From positions 1 through 34,351 of the forward strand of contig JAGQGZ010000009.1 in the NCBI GenBank assembly GCA_020432105.1: a DNA stretch of 34,351 nt, in the 5' to 3' direction. A model generated the notes under the pieces. It worked only from the letters and a program-made list of their open reading frames with translations. It searched no databases and was not told where the DNA came from. Positions within the stretch are counted from its first letter, which is position 1; every line of letters starts with the position of its first letter. Origin of the DNA: Dehalococcoidia bacterium (GTDB lineage: Bacteria > Chloroflexota > Dehalococcoidia > Tepidiformales > Tepidiformaceae). A program made the position numbers and the translations under genes. Below, piece after piece: positions 1,320 to 29,251 of this stretch.

Positions 1320-2354
1320 CTACTCCACCTCCCCATAGAACTCCCGCAACAGCTCCGTCAGCACATCGCTCACATAGCGCACGTGCGACACAGCATCGCT
1401 ATATCCCATCCGCGTCGGACCCAACACCCCCACAATCCCCCCGGCCCCAACGTCACTCCCGTAGCGCCCCAGCACAAAGCTCATGTTCGTGTACGGACCT
1501 TCCTTGTTCTCATCACCGATCACCACAGCCACACTCCCCGCCGCCACATCGTCCGCCGGGATCGCCGACCGCAGCTTCCGCTCCTCCACCGCCTCCAGTG
1601 CATCCAGCATCGAATCCGCACCCTCAAACTCCGGCTGACGCAGCATCTGCCGCACACCTTCCGTCACCGGCGTCTCCACCGCCGCCCGCTGCGCCTTCAA
1701 CAACTCATCCGCCACCGTCGCAATCACCAGGCCCTCCACGCCTCCCAGCGCATCATCCGCCAGCTCACTCGGCAGCTCCGAAGCCAGCTTCCCTCCAAAC
1801 TGCTCATTCAACCGGTTCGCCAACCGCGAAAGCCGCTCCTGCGTTACCGCCACCGGGAACTCCAGCGTCCGCTGATGCACCGCCGCGTCATTCGTCACCA
1901 CCACCAGCAGAGCACTCGTTTCCGCCAGCTCCACCAGCTGCACCTGCTTCAATCGCACCTGCTTCAGACGCGGCTCCGTCACCAGCGCCATATTCCCCAC
2001 CGCATTCGCCAGCACACTCGCCGCCAGCCCAATCCAGTTCTCCAGATCCCGCGCACTCTGCCGGAACTGGTGCAGAATCGTCATCTGCTCATCCCGCGTC
2101 AGCGCCTGCTCCTCCATCAGCGAACTCACGTAGTAGCGGTACCCCGGGTTCGAAGGGATCCGCCCCGCACTCGTATGCGGATGCGTCAGCATCCCCTGCC
2201 CCTCCAGCGCCGCCATCTCGTTCCGCACCGTCGCGCTCGAAAGCCCCAGCCCATGCCGCTGCACCAGCGAAGCCGAACCCACCGGCGTCGCCGAATCCAC
2301 ATAGTCATCTACCACAAACGCCAGGATCCTCGCACGACGGTCTGACAAAGCCAT
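1320..2354 (-). CDS. hrcA: Heat-inducible transcription repressor HrcA
   Basis: HrcA binds CIRCE operators and represses class I heat-shock genes; its folding depends on GroEL in studied bacteria. The 344-residue protein starts with a winged-helix domain (LSDRRARILAFVVDDYVDSA, then SSATVRNEMAALEGQGML and HTSAGRIPS, the hallmark HrcA motifs, within residues 1-80). It ends with a GAF-like part containing SFVLGRYG and GIVGVLGPTRMGY followed by a C-terminal helix. The first ATG, at 2352-2354, fits the family start; a TTG two codons upstream is the alternative. A perfect CIRCE lies 21 bases before the start, so the gene should repress itself along with grpE and dnaK. Confidence 0.96.
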   Translation of the reverse strand: MALSDRRARILAFVVDDYVDSATPVGSASLVQRHGLGLSSATVRNEMAALEGQGMLTHPHTSAGRIPSNPGYRYYVSSLMEEQALTRDEQMTILHQFRQSARDLENWIGLAASVLANAVGNMALVTEPRLKQVRLKQVQLVELAETSALLVVVTNDAAVHQRTLEFPVAVTQERLSRLANRLNEQFGGKLASELPSELADDALGGVEGLVIATVADELLKAQRAAVETPVTEGVRQMLRQPEFEGADSMLDALEAVEERKLRSAIPADDVAAGSVAVVIGDENKEGPYTNMSFVLGRYGSDVGAGGIVGVLGPTRMGYSDAVSHVRYVSDVLTELLREFYGEVE

Positions 2355-23616: not shown

Positions 23617-24452
23617 GATGTAAATCGCTCAAAGAACAGTCGTTTCGCGTTGTCGCCCCCCACAGCCGATCGGGTATCTGTATCCAGGTGCTTGACCGTT
23701 TTCGCATACTGATCGGCTATGCCGAGCATCGGGTAGTCAGACCCGAACAGTACGCGCTCCACCCCCACCGCGTCGATAAGCCGCGAAACGCTTTCTTGAT
23801 CATACAGGAGTGTTGTGGCGGCGGTATCGAAAGATATCGATAGGAGAGATTCACGAACCTCGGGCATCTGGGCGGCCCAGGCGAGGCCCCCTCCCTGGTG
23901 TGCGGCGACCATCTGTGTCCACGGGTGGGCAACAGCAAGTTTCCATAACTCCACAGGGGTAATGCCGCCCCACTTGCCCGGGTATTCGTGACCGAACTGT
24001 TCGGAGACGTGCCATAGCAGGACGGCACCATGTGCGGCCGCGAGTTCGCATAGGGCGTGACCCCGAGGCCCCAGCGGGTCCCAGCCCTGGTTCCAGGGGC
24101 GAAGCTCTCCGAATCCAGCCGCCCAATCGAGTGCGGACTCGGCCATAGATTCCCAACCGCTGACGCTGGGATTCACTGTTGCGAGGGCCACGAATCGGGG
24201 ATCGCTTGCAAGGATGGCGAGGGCATCATTCTGGCAGGCGATCTCATCCGGGGATGAAAACGCGAACCCGGCAGTGACGGCACCGTCGAATGATGCTGCC
24301 TCAACAGCTGCAACAACCTCTGCAGGGGTGGCCAGCCGAGCATTTGGGCTTTCATACATCTCGGCGAATGTTGCGTCGGAGTCCGCTATGGCGGCCCGCC
24401 GATTCACCTGTTCTGGCGCGAATGCGTGCACATGCGCGTCAATCCGCACCAT
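23613..24452 (-). CDS. Amidohydrolase_2-family metal-dependent hydrolase
   Basis: A 279-residue TIM-barrel protein of the amidohydrolase 2 group (decarboxylases and hydrolases such as ACMSD relatives). Metal and catalytic motifs are DAHVH (H7, H9), LLWHVSEQFGHEYPG (H148), VAAHQGGG (H185) and FGSDYPML (D239). The enzyme could hydrolyse or decarboxylate a small organic acid; no substrate clue exists. ATG at 24450-24452, three bases after the stop of the small protein gene upstream; it overlaps thpR downstream. All three genes are translationally linked, although no common function is apparent. Confidence 0.88.
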   Translation of the reverse strand: MVRIDAHVHAFAPEQVNRRAAIADSDATFAEMYESPNARLATPAEVVAAVEAASFDGAVTAGFAFSSPDEIACQNDALAILASDPRFVALATVNPSVSGWESMAESALDWAAGFGELRPWNQGWDPLGPRGHALCELAAAHGAVLLWHVSEQFGHEYPGKWGGITPVELWKLAVAHPWTQMVAAHQGGGLAWAAQMPEVRESLLSISFDTAATTLLYDQESVSRLIDAVGVERVLFGSDYPMLGIADQYAKTVKHLDTDTRSAVGGDNAKRLFFERFTS

Positions 24453-24455
24453 CGA

Positions 24456-24806
24456 CTAGGTGCGCCCCGCCCATACGAGGCCGGAGGTGAGCAGATCGGC
24501 ACCGTCGTGCTGGCCCTCGACGATCGCCTCAACCTCAAAGATGCGGGCGGTTGGCCGCTTTCCGGTGAGTTCCACAACGGGACTATCGCTGAGATGGCCG
24601 ATGACTGCCTCGGCTTGGTCCCGCCGTTCGAAGACGTAGAGGGCACCCCATTCGCCGGTGTCGCTGCTCGAAATCCAGGTCTTCTGGCGGAGTCCTTCCA
24701 TCTCGCGGAAGCGGGGCATGGAGCGGGTCCAAAGGTACTCGCGCAACTCTTCGAACGTTGCCTTCGAATCGGTGGAAAGGTCCCAGAGGACGAGCAGTGC
24801 GTGCAT
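24456..24806 (-). CDS. Small YdhR/ABM-like ferredoxin-fold protein
   Basis: A 116-residue protein beginning MHALLVLWDLSTDSKATFEELREYL, followed by MPRFREMEGLRQKTWISSSDTGEWGALYVFERRDQAEAVI. The pattern of strand, helix, G-L-R-x-K-x-W-I strand, and G-x-x-Y-V-F strand plus helix fits the dimeric alpha-beta barrel of YdhR and antibiotic-biosynthesis monooxygenase-like proteins. That is a fold-level assignment only. It is the first gene of an operon with the amidohydrolase and thpR. TATAGT lies six bases before the ATG and there is no real ribosome site, so the message may be leaderless. It diverges from the M20 peptidase gene by 45 bases. Confidence 0.75.
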   Translation of the reverse strand: MHALLVLWDLSTDSKATFEELREYLWTRSMPRFREMEGLRQKTWISSSDTGEWGALYVFERRDQAEAVIGHLSDSPVVELTGKRPTARIFEVEAIVEGQHDGADLLTSGLVWAGRT

Positions 24807-24812
24807 GCCACC

Positions 24813-24820
24813 ACTATACT
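24813..24820. promoter_or_regulatory. Overlapping divergent -10-like elements
   Basis: ACTATACT reads TATAGT on the minus strand (24818-24813, six bases before the ATG at 24806) and TATACT on the plus strand (24815-24820, 31 bases before the M20 peptidase ATG). The two would compete for polymerase. -35 elements are not evident. Confidence 0.4.
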
Positions 24821-24851
24821 CCGGGCACACCTCCCTCCCGGATACGCAAGC

Positions 24852-26150
24852 ATGGATTGGCAGCCTGTTTACGCCGAAGCACTCGACATCTTCGTGCGCT
24901 ACCTTCAAATCGATACAAGTAATCCACCCGGCCGCGAAGCCCCGGCGGCGCGCTTCCTCGGGTCGCTGCTCGAAGCCGAAGGCATCGAGTGCGAGTACAT
25001 CGAGATCCAGCCCGAGCGTGAGGCTGTGGTTGCGCGAATCAGGGGCGACGGATCGAAGCGTCCTCTCATGCTTTGCAACCACACGGACGTCGTGCCTGTG
25101 GAATCGCAGTACTGGACCTATCCGGCTTTCGAGGGGCATGTGGAGGACAGCAGGGTGTATGGCCGCGGTGCCGTAGACATGAAGGGCTGCGGTGTGATGC
25201 AGCTGATGACCTTCCTGCAGCTGTGGCGCAACAAGGTGCCGTTGACGCGCGATGTTGTGTTCCTCGCTGTGCCGGACGAGGAAGCGGGGAGCGTCTGGGG
25301 CATGGAATGGTTGTGTAAGAATCGGCCGGACCTGATGGATGTCGAATTCGAGCTGAGTGAGGGCGGCGGTGGGGCCTCCAGCTTTGCCGGCCAACCGACC
25401 CGGCTGTTCAGTGTGGCAACCAACGAGAAAGAGGTGTGCTGGCTGAAGCTGACGGCCGTCGGAACACCTGGCCATGGGAGCCGTCCTCACGAGGACAACT
25501 CAGCAGTACGGCTCATGGAGGCCCTGCTCAAACTCCACGCAATGGAACGGCCGTTCACGTGGACACCGGACACTACCGCCTATGCAAAGAACCTGGCCGA
25601 CGCCGGGCTGCTGCCGGCATTCGATGACCGTGCTTCGATCGAAGCACATATCAGGAAGTCGCCAGAATTGCTTGCGATGTTCACCAACACCCTGAACATC
25701 ACCATGCTGAACTCGGGTATCAAGGCGAATGTGATCCCGGCGAAGAGCGAAGCTGTTATCGATTGCCGCCTGTTGCCGGGACAAACCAAGGAAGCATGGA
25801 TCGAGCACCTTCGGAACGTGATCAACGACGAGAACGTGGAGATTGAACTCTATCTCCAGGACCAGGGTGCAAACGAGCCGGTCGAATGGGACACCGAGCT
25901 CTATCGGACGATTCACGCCGTCATCACCGATGCGATGGAGGACGCGATCGTGACACCGACGATGACGGTGGGGGGCACCGACAATCGCTTTCTTCGCACA
26001 CAGGGCATCCCGGCATATGGGTTCATCCCATGCCTCCTGAGCCGTGAGGAACGGGCGGGATTCCATGGCAACGATGAGTTCCTGACGATCGACAACCTGA
26101 ACATGGGCACGGAGCTCATGTACGAGATCGTCCACCGGTTCTGCACCTAA
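24852..26150 (+). CDS. M20-family metallopeptidase (ArgE/DapE-like)
   Basis: A 432-residue zinc hydrolase of the M20/M28 group. Metal and catalytic residues are visible: CNHTDVVPV (H77, D79), RGAVDMKGCG (D109), VPDEEAGS (E143/E144), and the dimerisation-domain motif GTPGHGSRPHEDNSAV; GGTDNRFLRTQGIPAYG near the end fits the last metal-binding region. M20 members remove N-acyl groups or cleave dipeptides; the substrate is unknown. The ATG at 24852 is the family-like start (MDWQPVYAEALDIFVRYLQIDT); the frame's upstream extension runs through the divergent small gene and is rejected. Single gene with a hairpin over its stop codon. Confidence 0.92.
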   Translation: MDWQPVYAEALDIFVRYLQIDTSNPPGREAPAARFLGSLLEAEGIECEYIEIQPEREAVVARIRGDGSKRPLMLCNHTDVVPVESQYWTYPAFEGHVEDSRVYGRGAVDMKGCGVMQLMTFLQLWRNKVPLTRDVVFLAVPDEEAGSVWGMEWLCKNRPDLMDVEFELSEGGGGASSFAGQPTRLFSVATNEKEVCWLKLTAVGTPGHGSRPHEDNSAVRLMEALLKLHAMERPFTWTPDTTAYAKNLADAGLLPAFDDRASIEAHIRKSPELLAMFTNTLNITMLNSGIKANVIPAKSEAVIDCRLLPGQTKEAWIEHLRNVINDENVEIELYLQDQGANEPVEWDTELYRTIHAVITDAMEDAIVTPTMTVGGTDNRFLRTQGIPAYGFIPCLLSREERAGFHGNDEFLTIDNLNMGTELMYEIVHRFCT

Positions 26151-26155
26151 CCGGT
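26134..26155 (+). terminator. Possible terminator overlapping the M20 peptidase stop
   Basis: ACCGGTT at 26134-26140 pairs with AACCGGT at 26149-26155; the loop is eight bases, and TCTTT follows. The right arm includes the two As of the stop codon. Short for a terminator. Confidence 0.45.
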
Positions 26156-26205
26156 TCTTTCCCCGGCCACGACTGAGCCGGCCCGAATCTGCTGCTGCCA
26201 CCGCC

Positions 26206-26272
26206 AGAGTTTGCAGAGAGTTTGCCGGATGTAGCTGACGCGGTTATCCGGCACAGTCTACGGTCGTCTACG
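26206..26272 (+). promoter_or_regulatory. Direct repeats upstream of the secreted-protein leader
   Basis: AGAGTTTGC occurs at 26206-26214 and 26217-26225, an 11-base period; GTCTACG occurs at 26256-26262 and 26266-26272, a 10-base period. Helically phased direct repeats of this kind are used by OmpR/PhoB-type regulators, but no regulator is encoded nearby. A 7-bp hairpin (26224-26230 with 26246-26252) lies between the two pairs. Confidence 0.35.
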
Positions 26273-26275
26273 ACA

Positions 26276-26518
26276 GGGCCCGGAGGCCCCGTCACTGACC
26301 ACGAAGAAGCCCCGGTTCGGCGGTAACCGTTCCGGGGCGGACGCAAGGGGAGAACGGTAGTCCGCCCTTGCAGGATCGGATTCTAGCACTGCCGCGGTGA
26401 AGTTCCGCGGTGAAACGCTACCGATCTCTTGTCTCCCCTGTGTCCGGAAAGGAGCGCCGGACCAGATCCCATAGCAGTCGAAATGTGAATCCGTCGGGGC
26501 CGAATGGCCTCCGGCCAT
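26276..26518 (+). ncRNA. Structured leader RNA candidate, unassigned
   Basis: Between the M20 peptidase and the secreted protein gene is a 416-base stretch without a gene, with many potential stems: GGGCC/GGCCC (26276-26289), CCCCGG-TT-CGG paired with CCG-TT-CCGGGG (26310-26337), a crossing pair CGGAC/GTCCG (26338-26342 with 26360-26364) and GCAAGGG/CCCTTGC (26343-26349 with 26365-26371) that would form an H-type pseudoknot, GTCCGG/CCGGAC (26442-26462) and ATGGCC/GGCCAT (26504-26518). CCGCGGTGAA is repeated at 26392 and 26405. I do not recognise a known riboswitch; transcription of the region is inferred. Confidence 0.4.
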
Positions 26519-26566
26519 GCCGCGGCATATCTGCCGCACAACGATTCAGAGAGGAACGAGAACCTG

Positions 26567-27943
26567 GTGAATCAACTCTCGATGAAACTGACAGGGGCAG
26601 TCGCGCTCTTTGCGGTCCTCCTCGGTGTCGGCGCATTCGCGTCAGCCGCCCGGGCAGAAGATGTGCCCACGTCAGGCAACGTCAACAATTCCAACGGTGG
26701 TGGTGCGCATATCGCCAACATCGCCGACCTCAAGTCTCCGCTCGATGCCAGCGATTACGATGACGACCCCGGTGGCGAGCCCGGCTCCGAGTGGTTCCAT
26801 GTGGCGCCAAACCTCGGTGACGAGCCGCTGCAAATGGTCGACAAGTACGTCGTTGTCTATAACCCGGCCGACGTTGCCGAACTTCAGGTAACGCTACGCA
26901 CGCGCCCCGGTGGCACAGTGGTCTGGGAGACGCTGCTCCCGGGCGAAGACGGCGTCTCCGGCAGCGAGTGCAACGCGATGCTTGCTATCGGTGAAGGCGG
27001 CACGGTTGGCAGCGGCTTGCTTGTTACCGGCCAGAAATCGACGGAAGAACTCACGGAGATCCGCAACCGCTGTACACAGCGCACGGCCGGCGTCTGGCAC
27101 GCAGCATTCCCTGTGAGCAAGCACCTCCCCCCGGGCTGGTACGACCAGTGCGTGGCAATCTCCCACCTCGGTGGTGGAAGCACGCCGCGCGAGTGCGTAC
27201 CGATCCGCATCGTCCCGATCACCGGCTATGCAACCGATGTTGAAGGCCTCGACTTCGGGACCCTGAAGCAGAACATCCGCAACGTCGACGAGGGCAACTT
27301 TGAACTCGGCGATGACATGGGCACCGTGATGGGAACCGGCAACACTTCGCCGGTGCTTTCGCTGGCTTACAGCTGGATGAAGAACGATACCTTCGATCCT
27401 GGAACATCGAAGTACATCAAGAACGACTTCGACGCCCAGATCAATCGTCGCGACGGCTCTGGTCTCATCGTCGATTTCGACGAAGCCGATGGCCTGCTGG
27501 GTGGTGCCGATCCGGATTCGACGGACCCGTTTGACGGTGCCGATATCGCTTCGCTCAATGGCATCTGCCTTGAACCAAATGAGCCGCTGAAGCTCGACTT
27601 CTCGGTGACGCCGCGCCAGGTGTTGTATGACGGTGCCTATCGCGGATTGGTCCGCCTGAGCATCGGTGAAGCCGAAGAGGGATGCGAACCGAGCCTTGGC
27701 TCGGGTGAGAATGCCGGCGGCGATAGCGACGGCGTCTTCAACAACCTCCCCGGTGAGCCGGTTGAGCAGGACTACTCCGGTGGTGAACCGGAGCCGACCG
27801 TCACGCCGGAGCCGACAGCCGAACCCACCGAAGAACCTACTCAGGAACCCACTCAGGAACCGACCGTGGAACCCACCGAGGAACCGACCGTGGAGCCCAC
27901 TGAAGAACCAACGGTGGCACCAACCGAAGAAACCACGCCGTAG
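26567..27943 (+). CDS. Secreted protein with Glu-Pro-Thr repeat tail
   Basis: Unrecognised family. The 458-residue protein has a signal peptide (hydrophobic KLTGAVALFAVLLGVGAFA, cleavage after ARA near residue 31), then a 390-residue beta-rich, acidic body with six Cys that could form disulfides, and a C-terminal tail of about 50 residues built of P-T-E/V-E repeats with an eight-residue period (EPTVEPTE). No LPXTG, TM helix or other anchor is seen, so the tail may work as a stalk or glycosylation site. The GTG at 26567 (GAGG 12 bases upstream) gives MNQLSMKL; the ATG at 26582 is the alternative. A strong terminator separates it from the next surface protein gene. Confidence 0.8.
   Translation: MNQLSMKLTGAVALFAVLLGVGAFASAARAEDVPTSGNVNNSNGGGAHIANIADLKSPLDASDYDDDPGGEPGSEWFHVAPNLGDEPLQMVDKYVVVYNPADVAELQVTLRTRPGGTVVWETLLPGEDGVSGSECNAMLAIGEGGTVGSGLLVTGQKSTEELTEIRNRCTQRTAGVWHAAFPVSKHLPPGWYDQCVAISHLGGGSTPRECVPIRIVPITGYATDVEGLDFGTLKQNIRNVDEGNFELGDDMGTVMGTGNTSPVLSLAYSWMKNDTFDPGTSKYIKNDFDAQINRRDGSGLIVDFDEADGLLGGADPDSTDPFDGADIASLNGICLEPNEPLKLDFSVTPRQVLYDGAYRGLVRLSIGEAEEGCEPSLGSGENAGGDSDGVFNNLPGEPVEQDYSGGEPEPTVTPEPTAEPTEEPTQEPTQEPTVEPTEEPTVEPTEEPTVAPTEETTP
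27787..27942 (+). repeat. Imperfect 24-base coding repeats
   Basis: The 3' end of the secreted protein gene repeats units encoding EPTVEPTE and close variants. The unit GAACCGACCGTGGA with CCCAC recurs; third-base differences show the copies have diverged. Confidence 0.75.
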
Positions 27944-28036: not shown

Positions 28037-29251
28037 ATGCGTTCGCTACTGTGGATCGCGGTGCCTGTGCTCGTTTTCGGCTTGGTCGCCGTACACGAGA
28101 CCCAGGCCCAGTCGGTGGGCTTCTTTCCTTCAGCTATTGAACTCGAGAACGCTCTGCGCGGCCAGGAGTACCAGACGCGCACGACGCTTGTGAACCAGGA
28201 TGACGAAGCTCGGATCTTCACGATGCTTGCGAGCGGCGATACTGCCGCCTGGACCCGGTTCACGCTCCTGGAAGAACCAGGTGAGCCGGTCGGACAGGTG
28301 CTGGTTCCACCGGAAAGCGAGGCTGTGGTGCTCGTCACCGTCGCAGTGCCCGACACCGCACCCAACGGGGCCGTGGTCGGGAAGAACGCGTACGACGGGT
28401 ACACGGAAAAAGCGTTCGAGAGCCGCGAGGGTCTCGTTTCGGGATTTGAACAACCGGTCCGGATCAGAGTCACCGGCGACCAGGTCATCGATCTTCGGGT
28501 CGGTGACGTGTCAGCCCGCAATGTCGAGGTTGGGCAGCCGCTGAGAGTTACCGCGGCCCTGGCGAATCAAGGTAATGTGGACGTCAAGCCCGACCTGACC
28601 TTCGACATCTACAAGCTTCCCGGCGATGCCGCGGCGGACCCCCTCGATACTGTCTCTGCCGAGCTGGTGATGGTGCCGCCGGGACAGAGCCGCACGCCAT
28701 CAGCAACATGGGACACGGCAGGGCGCGCCCCCGGGCACTACCGTGCTGACTATGTTCTGAGCCTGGATGGCGAGCGATTGGCACTGGGGAGCTTTCAATT
28801 TACCCTGGCGCCTGCTGGGAGCGTTACTCCGAGCGGTTCAATCATAGCTGTGGATCTCGTTCGACCCTTAATTCCTGGGGCTGTGAACCGGGCGGACGTG
28901 ACGTTCGAGAATACCGGAGGGGTACCCGTCCGGGCCCATTTCACGGGTTATATCTACGCCGGAGCTACTGCTTTGAGCGAGGCGGCTACTCCCGATTCGC
29001 TCACTGTGGATCCGGGGGAGAAGGTTACATTGAGTGCCTACTTCGACCTGCCAAAAGCCGAGGATCAGTATGAGCTCCGGGGTCGCGCTTACTTTGAAGG
29101 CGAACAGACTGACGAGGTGGCCGTTGGGTTCGCCCTCGGTACCGACGGTGAGACGTCAGTGACGAAGTGGCTGGCACTTGGTGGCTTGGCCGTGGTCGCC
29201 GCGGGGATCCTGGCGATGAGTACAGCCTGGTTCATTCGGCGCCGATCATGA
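28037..29251 (+). CDS. Membrane-anchored surface protein with Ig-like domains
   Basis: Unrecognised beyond fold level. The 404-residue protein has a signal peptide (MRSLLWIAVPVLVFGLVAVHE, cleavage probably after TQA), three predicted beta-sandwich segments (about 25-160, 160-265 and 275-370), and a C-terminal TM helix (WLALGGLAVVAAGILAMSTAWFI, about 378-400) ending in RRRS, so the body is outside the cell. The first domain (VGFFPSAIELENALRGQEYQTRTTLVNQDDEARIF) resembles the chaperone-like or DUF916 Ig fold; the next ones contain CARDB-like N-x-G-N-V and N-x-G-G-V turns. It follows the secreted EPT-tail protein and may tether it or another component. Confidence 0.78.
   Translation: MRSLLWIAVPVLVFGLVAVHETQAQSVGFFPSAIELENALRGQEYQTRTTLVNQDDEARIFTMLASGDTAAWTRFTLLEEPGEPVGQVLVPPESEAVVLVTVAVPDTAPNGAVVGKNAYDGYTEKAFESREGLVSGFEQPVRIRVTGDQVIDLRVGDVSARNVEVGQPLRVTAALANQGNVDVKPDLTFDIYKLPGDAAADPLDTVSAELVMVPPGQSRTPSATWDTAGRAPGHYRADYVLSLDGERLALGSFQFTLAPAGSVTPSGSIIAVDLVRPLIPGAVNRADVTFENTGGVPVRAHFTGYIYAGATALSEAATPDSLTVDPGEKVTLSAYFDLPKAEDQYELRGRAYFEGEQTDEVAVGFALGTDGETSVTKWLALGGLAVVAAGILAMSTAWFIRRRS

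Follow-up and report, generated by a model that had tools for sequence, protein, structure and literature searches.

The window analysed here, a 34,351-nt stretch of a Dehalococcoidia genome, contains a gap of 416 nt (26151-26566) between a gene for an M20 peptidase (24426-26150) and a gene for a secreted protein, and the question raised by this locus is whether the gap contains a cis-acting RNA and, if so, how it is folded and what it controls. The secreted-protein gene (26567..27943, plus strand) starts with GTG and encodes 458 amino acids with a signal peptide and a C-terminal PT-rich repeat. Its ribosome-binding site, AGAGGA (26550..26555, plus strand), is located at the same place as GGAGAGA-like sites in homologous genes. 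The second gene, on the same strand (28037..29251), encodes a 404-aa surface protein with a signal peptide and a C-terminal membrane anchor. A first-pass annotation had measured the gap correctly and had suggested a long structured leader that acts in cis on a surface-protein operon and contains a potential H-type pseudoknot. The RNA proved to be real and the fold drawn for it wrong: the 417-nt leader folds better than shuffled sequences (z -3.2), and the homologous leaders described below are all located in front of secreted-protein genes.

A DNA search of 60 relatives with the whole leader yielded one further match, L002 in genome G006, located upstream of a secreted protein other than that of the window, and searches with exact motif patterns recovered only this same locus. 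Relatives of the L002 secreted protein within the same bacterial family were preceded by leaders of the same kind, and further members were collected by a protein search from this neighbour followed by covariance models. The best place in the window for a model built from three sequences, with the window left out (R1), was 26336-26454, with a score of 24.4 bits (next best, 12.3). This match emerged when R1 was applied to the window directly; the pre-filter used for whole genomes had passed it over. A second model (R2) was built from 14 members. Using both models on 38 genomes of the family, we identified 19 members in 12 genomes of a single Chloroflexota family, including five members that were not in the R2 training set; several genomes contained two or three copies of the RNA, and the shorter L013 is a probable twentieth member. 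Three matches with E values of 0.05-0.08 (L049-L051) were left out of the reading, and low-scoring matches to either model (L026, L028-L030, L034, L035 and L048) were rejected as coding-like or lacking the stems. Outside the family, R2 had no match at E<=0.001 in 255 genomes of the class and 400 genomes of the phylum, using stricter filters with which weak matches are lost. Pattern matches in Actinomycetota, Salinivenus, Nitrospirae, Bacillota and Mycobacterium were rejected, their model scores resembling those expected by chance.

The distance from the end of the model match to the start codon was 83-182 nt in all 19 leaders. All 19 downstream products have a signal-peptide-like N-terminus, as judged by reading the N-termini, and many of the proteins start with MRKIFGGAM. 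The RNA is a conserved structured domain upstream of one gene class, which is one of the features of riboswitches. Protein-family searches mostly gave no name to the targets; the target at L036 clearly belongs to the SipW-dependent/TasA/camelysin type (PF12389 and TIGR04088, both above cut-off) and other targets contain VWA, DUF11 or CARDB domains. Several members are located in TasA/SipW-like operons, in which the next gene reads like a SipW-type signal peptidase. At L036, L038, L039, L042, L044 and L047, a short secreted protein, TasA/camelysin-like or similar, is encoded ahead of a SipW-type signal peptidase-like gene. For the operon of the window, with its PT-rich and membrane-anchored products, we found a weak relative with the same gene order in genome G010. 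At L040, a SAM riboswitch (RF00162, 80 bits; 2231-2340, plus strand) is located just 3' of the short secreted-protein gene behind the new leader.

A repeat or mobile element was rejected since the leader is present in a single copy in its own genome. That the element is a terminator belonging to the M20 peptidase gene was also rejected, since in 12 genomes it lies at comparable distances ahead of genes for secreted proteins. The promoter-like sequence CTGACG-N18-TACGGT (26235..26264, plus strand) is in the same place as a TTGAC (-35-like) that is located 98-113 nt upstream of the P2 helix (described below) in 12 of the 19 members, against a background of 7% per 110 nt; the match in the window is 7/12. 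The start of transcription predicted from this promoter-like sequence is very probably at about 26270, and not downstream of 26371. Near the predicted 5' end is a small hairpin, P0 (GGGCC..GGCCC; 26276..26289, plus strand), and several homologues have a variable hairpin at this place.

The elements of the family follow each other, from 5' to 3', as promoter, small variable hairpin, P1, 5' strand of P2, CCUUGC, the central hairpin P3, further central hairpins, mid strand and P4. To examine the helices we used a swap test, in which the pairing energy of strands from the same member is compared with that of strands exchanged between members, ignoring shared ancestry. P1 (26309..26338, plus strand) contains an outer helix GCCCCGG/CCGGGGC, an inner helix CGG/CCG and a hexaloop, CGGUAA, and directly abuts P2. 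This hairpin folds in all 19 members, in most of them with a hexaloop of the rough consensus CNGNNA (others have CUGGCA, CGGCAA, CUGCAA and more), while the sequence of the stem changes freely. The energies for P1 were -21.2 kcal/mol for self and -13.2 kcal/mol for swapped strands, and none of 5000 swaps was as good.

The 5' strand of P2, GGACGCAAGGGGAGA (26339..26353, plus strand; GGUCGCAAGGAGA in the family), covaries with the 3' or mid strand, UCUCCCCUGUGUCC (26432..26445, plus strand; UCUCC..GCGACCC in the family). For P2 as a whole the swap test yielded -21.3 kcal/mol for self versus -18.8 kcal/mol for swapped strands, with 0 of 5000 swaps as good; when the helix was split, 1 of 5000 swaps was as good for the inner arm and 67 of 5000 for the outer arm. 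Compensatory changes include GGAC/GUCC in the window versus GGUC/GACC in the type sequence, GAGCCG/CGGCUC in L058 and GGAuGACGG/CCGUCUCC in L045. In a column-wise count on the model alignment, 79% of the cells were paired and the covariation score was reached by 15 of 500 shuffles, a modest score that is partly explained by the window, L045 and L057 being placed one base off in the alignment. Sliding the P2 partner by one to three bases reduced the pairing to 41-57%.

Between the P2 strands is P3 (26373..26427, plus strand), in which GGAUCGG (26373-26379) pairs with CCGAUCU (26421-26427) around an inner hairpin. It contains AUUCUAGCAC (26380-26389, plus strand), which is conserved as a motif in the alignment of homologues, and nearly all members form a hairpin at this place, its sequence differing between them. 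The P4 hairpin, GUCCGG-AAAGGAGCG-CCGGAC (26442..26462, plus strand), has GUCC in common with P2. Its arms in the family are GACCCGG at the end of the mid strand (GUCCGG in the window) and CCGGGUC (CCGGAC in the window), and the hairpin folds in most members. The swap test for P4 yielded -10.4 kcal/mol for self versus -8.9 kcal/mol for swapped strands, with 1 of 5000 swaps as good (418 of 5000 in a first version with another strand cut). The P4 loop contains a Shine-Dalgarno-like AAAGGAG (26448..26454, plus strand) that has no start codon close behind it and is complementary to the UCUCC of the mid strand; AAGGAG is present in 15 of the 19 P4 loops and absent from 4. Taken together, we have little doubt that a conserved structured leader acts here in cis, and by these comparisons it is a real, uncatalogued and lineage-restricted RNA family.

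Variation within the family was also observed. Three loci (L037, L044 and L054) represent a second RNA subtype with GGGUCGC or GGGACGC..GGAGAGCG and without CCUUGC, located before MRKIFGGAM-type proteins, and with a P4 loop that lacks AAGGAG but contains GGAGA. L045 (1827-3080) and L057 (2-751, minus strand) have a variant inner arm of P2 (GGAUGACGG/CCGUCUCC and GGAUGGU/ACCUCC) and two related VWA-type secreted proteins downstream; their leaders are a possible subtype.

How, then, does the proposed pseudoknot compare with this architecture? The first-pass annotation had paired CGGAC (26338-26342) with GTCCG (26360-26364), here S1, and GCAAGGG (26343-26349) with CCCTTGC (26365-26371), here S2. 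The positions are exact, the segments are complementary in crossing order, and among 2000 dinucleotide-shuffled versions of the leader only one contained adjacent crossing stems of 5 and 7 pairs. Among the 19 homologues, however, S1 showed neither conservation nor covariation (-2.9 kcal/mol for self versus -3.2 kcal/mol for swapped strands; 4321 of 5000 swaps as good). For S2, GCAAGG and CCUUGC were both exact in 13 of 19 members and self equalled swapped, so that there was no covariation in this nearly invariant helix either. The directly adjacent segments moreover leave loops L1 and L3 of 0 nt, which makes an H-type pseudoknot sterically unlikely. The energies of the two stems are -6 and -11 kcal/mol, whereas the same bases can form a local alternative, GGGCGGAC/GUCCGCCC, of about -16 kcal/mol, or the long-range P2 of about -24 kcal/mol. 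GGAC/GGUC has its conserved partner about 100 nt further downstream, in the strand with GUCC/GACC at 26442-26445. We therefore regard the pseudoknot as highly improbable. S2 may on its own be a real alternative pairing, in which GCAAGGG (26343..26349, plus strand) would leave P2 for CCCUUGC (26365..26371, plus strand), the UGC of which, in most homologues, is also part of the base of P3.

The mid-strand bases GUCC/GACCC are used by the outer helix of P2 as well as by P4, and both helices covary. Because both need the mid strand, P2 and P4 are mutually exclusive, and selection, as read from the covariation, is keeping both. In the window, three strands have changed together, being GGAC, GUCC and GGAC where the type sequence has GGUC, GACC and GGUC. 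Predicted ensembles favoured P2 in some members (0.82 in the window) and P4 in L036, L038, L055 and L056, and folding predictions made sequence by sequence do not agree on the winning state. Our main reading, to which we assign a probability of roughly 0.6, is that this lineage-restricted family of leader RNAs is a bistable cis-regulatory switch for secreted envelope proteins. The exclusivity of P2 and P4 would seem, with similar confidence, to be what is used for switching, and the RNA probably switches cell-surface proteins on and off.

By comparison of the members, the leader folds P1, followed by either P2, which closes a multibranched domain, or the downstream P4. In the mechanism that we propose, P2 would in the first state hold the mid strand with its UCUCC, leaving free both AAAGGAG in the P4 loop sequence and the ribosome-binding site of the gene, which is of the GGAGA type, and expression would be on. 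In the second state, the 5' strand would pair with CCUUGC through S2 and P4 would form, and the freed UCUCC could pair either with the loop of P4 or with the gene's ribosome-binding site, turning expression off. A signal, whether ligand, protein or temperature, would be read by P1 and the junction and set the balance between P2 and P4. The pairing of UCUCC with the P4 loop (195 of 5000 swaps as good) and with the ribosome-binding site (289 of 5000) were both weak in the swap test, and the translational readout as drawn here is doubtful. An intrinsic terminator is unlikely because no U-run follows P4 in the member sequences listed; terminator-like sites in the leader of the window were at chance level only. 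That the signal is a small molecule, making the RNA a riboswitch, is conceivable but the less probable case. A shade more tentative is the full version of that idea, namely a new riboswitch class of one Chloroflexota family that would sense a putative small molecule or second messenger and coordinate the proteins of the cell surface (TasA/SipW-like and VWA/DUF11) by way of three strands that switch between P2 and P4.

Some of the same features could also belong to a leader that senses nothing and constitutively stabilises the mRNA or docks ribosomes, with AAAGGAG binding the 30S subunit without initiation in the STAB-SD manner and the stems blocking exonucleases. Envelope proteins are often abundant, and the targets look like envelope proteins. 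AAAGGAG is a near-perfect complement to the 16S rRNA, and its presence in most loops with no start codon close behind it is a feature shared with STAB-SD, an element by which non-initiating 30S docking stabilises the cry3A mRNA (PMC4113751). We nevertheless consider this explanation unlikely, since it does not account for the compensatory retention of a long-range P2 that excludes P4, nor for the conserved P1 hexaloop and AUUCUAGCAC. The four members without AAGGAG also argue against it, as does the location of the cry3A element near the 5' end, compared with about 180 nt into the transcript for AAAGGAG here. We give the same low weight to a binding site for an RNA-binding regulator, as in protein autoregulation, in place of a small molecule. 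Hairpins recognised by proteins often keep their loop on changing stems, much as in P1, which has an internal loop, the hexaloop stays similar and the stem changes freely, and the targets represent one functional class and not one metabolic pathway; yet we have no candidate protein and the consensus of the loop is loose.

A link to cyclic dinucleotides had to be considered for biofilm-type surface proteins. At the gathering score, no Rfam 15 covariance model matched the window or, in 18 homologous loci, the leader, and relaxing the threshold to E<=10 added nothing relevant, in agreement with the earlier description of the RNA as possibly uncharacterised and without a match to the cores of the c-di-GMP and c-di-AMP classes. 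The models for c-di-GMP-I, c-di-GMP-II and ydaO did not match four members even at E<=10; at this threshold RF01051 was not found in the leader of the window, and the model identified only other loci in the family. At other places in the family, and also in the genome of the window, there are canonical c-di-GMP-I riboswitches, some of which precede secreted-protein genes. They were detected in six family genomes (L070-L079; in the genome of the window L073, 725-818, minus strand, G000:C5), and some of their targets are secreted proteins with a common start, ..AWC..DPxIxVNGQ... Since the canonical class occurs separately in the family, before other genes, the leader is not of the c-di-GMP-I class. 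A divergent cyclic-dinucleotide riboswitch would fit the TasA/SipW-like targets, the company of c-di-GMP-I switches before secreted-protein genes, and the distribution of GGDEF proteins, which are encoded in all 12 genomes with the RNA, while the eleven genomes without GGDEF, a nine-genome genus and two others, also lack the RNA. But 15 genomes have GGDEF and no RNA, the absences are clustered phylogenetically, the pattern following genera, and a canonical c-di-GMP-I switch is already available in the family, as well as no cyclic-dinucleotide model matching. We judge this explanation to be less probable still than the stabiliser or the protein site. GGDEF is wholly absent from genus g12 (nine genomes), G014 and G007, as compared with 3-15 copies in the rest of the family, and the whole of genus g12 has apparently lost or lacks c-di-GMP signalling.

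The leader would represent, in a little-studied lineage, an uncatalogued family of cis-regulatory RNAs for which boundary, consensus and target set (secreted envelope proteins) are defined. It would provide a handle on cell-surface control in uncultivated Chloroflexota, and the covariation of three strands makes the switching model directly testable.

Among known systems, the leader resembles the orphan riboswitch candidates and cis-regulatory motifs that comparative genomics has brought to light (for example PMC2864571) in its conservation 5' of the gene, its covarying stems and alternative pairings and its fixed place before one gene class, but differs in being restricted to one family and without a match in Rfam 15. 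Like the Chloroflexi-1 motif (RF01698), it is a structured RNA candidate from Chloroflexota; that motif was reported from Chloroflexus aggregans and its model matches neither the window nor the homologous loci. Like the STAB-SD of cry3A (PMC4113751), it combines a strongly expressed gene with a long leader that contains a Shine-Dalgarno-like sequence not used for initiation, but here this sequence is located in a hairpin loop at a great distance from the 5' end, and the hairpin covaries and is in competition with a long-range helix. The c-di-GMP-I riboswitch (RF01051) is likewise found in this bacterial family and upstream of secreted-protein genes, but has another core and architecture, the new leader being distinguished by the long-range P2 and by P4 with its AAAGGAG loop.
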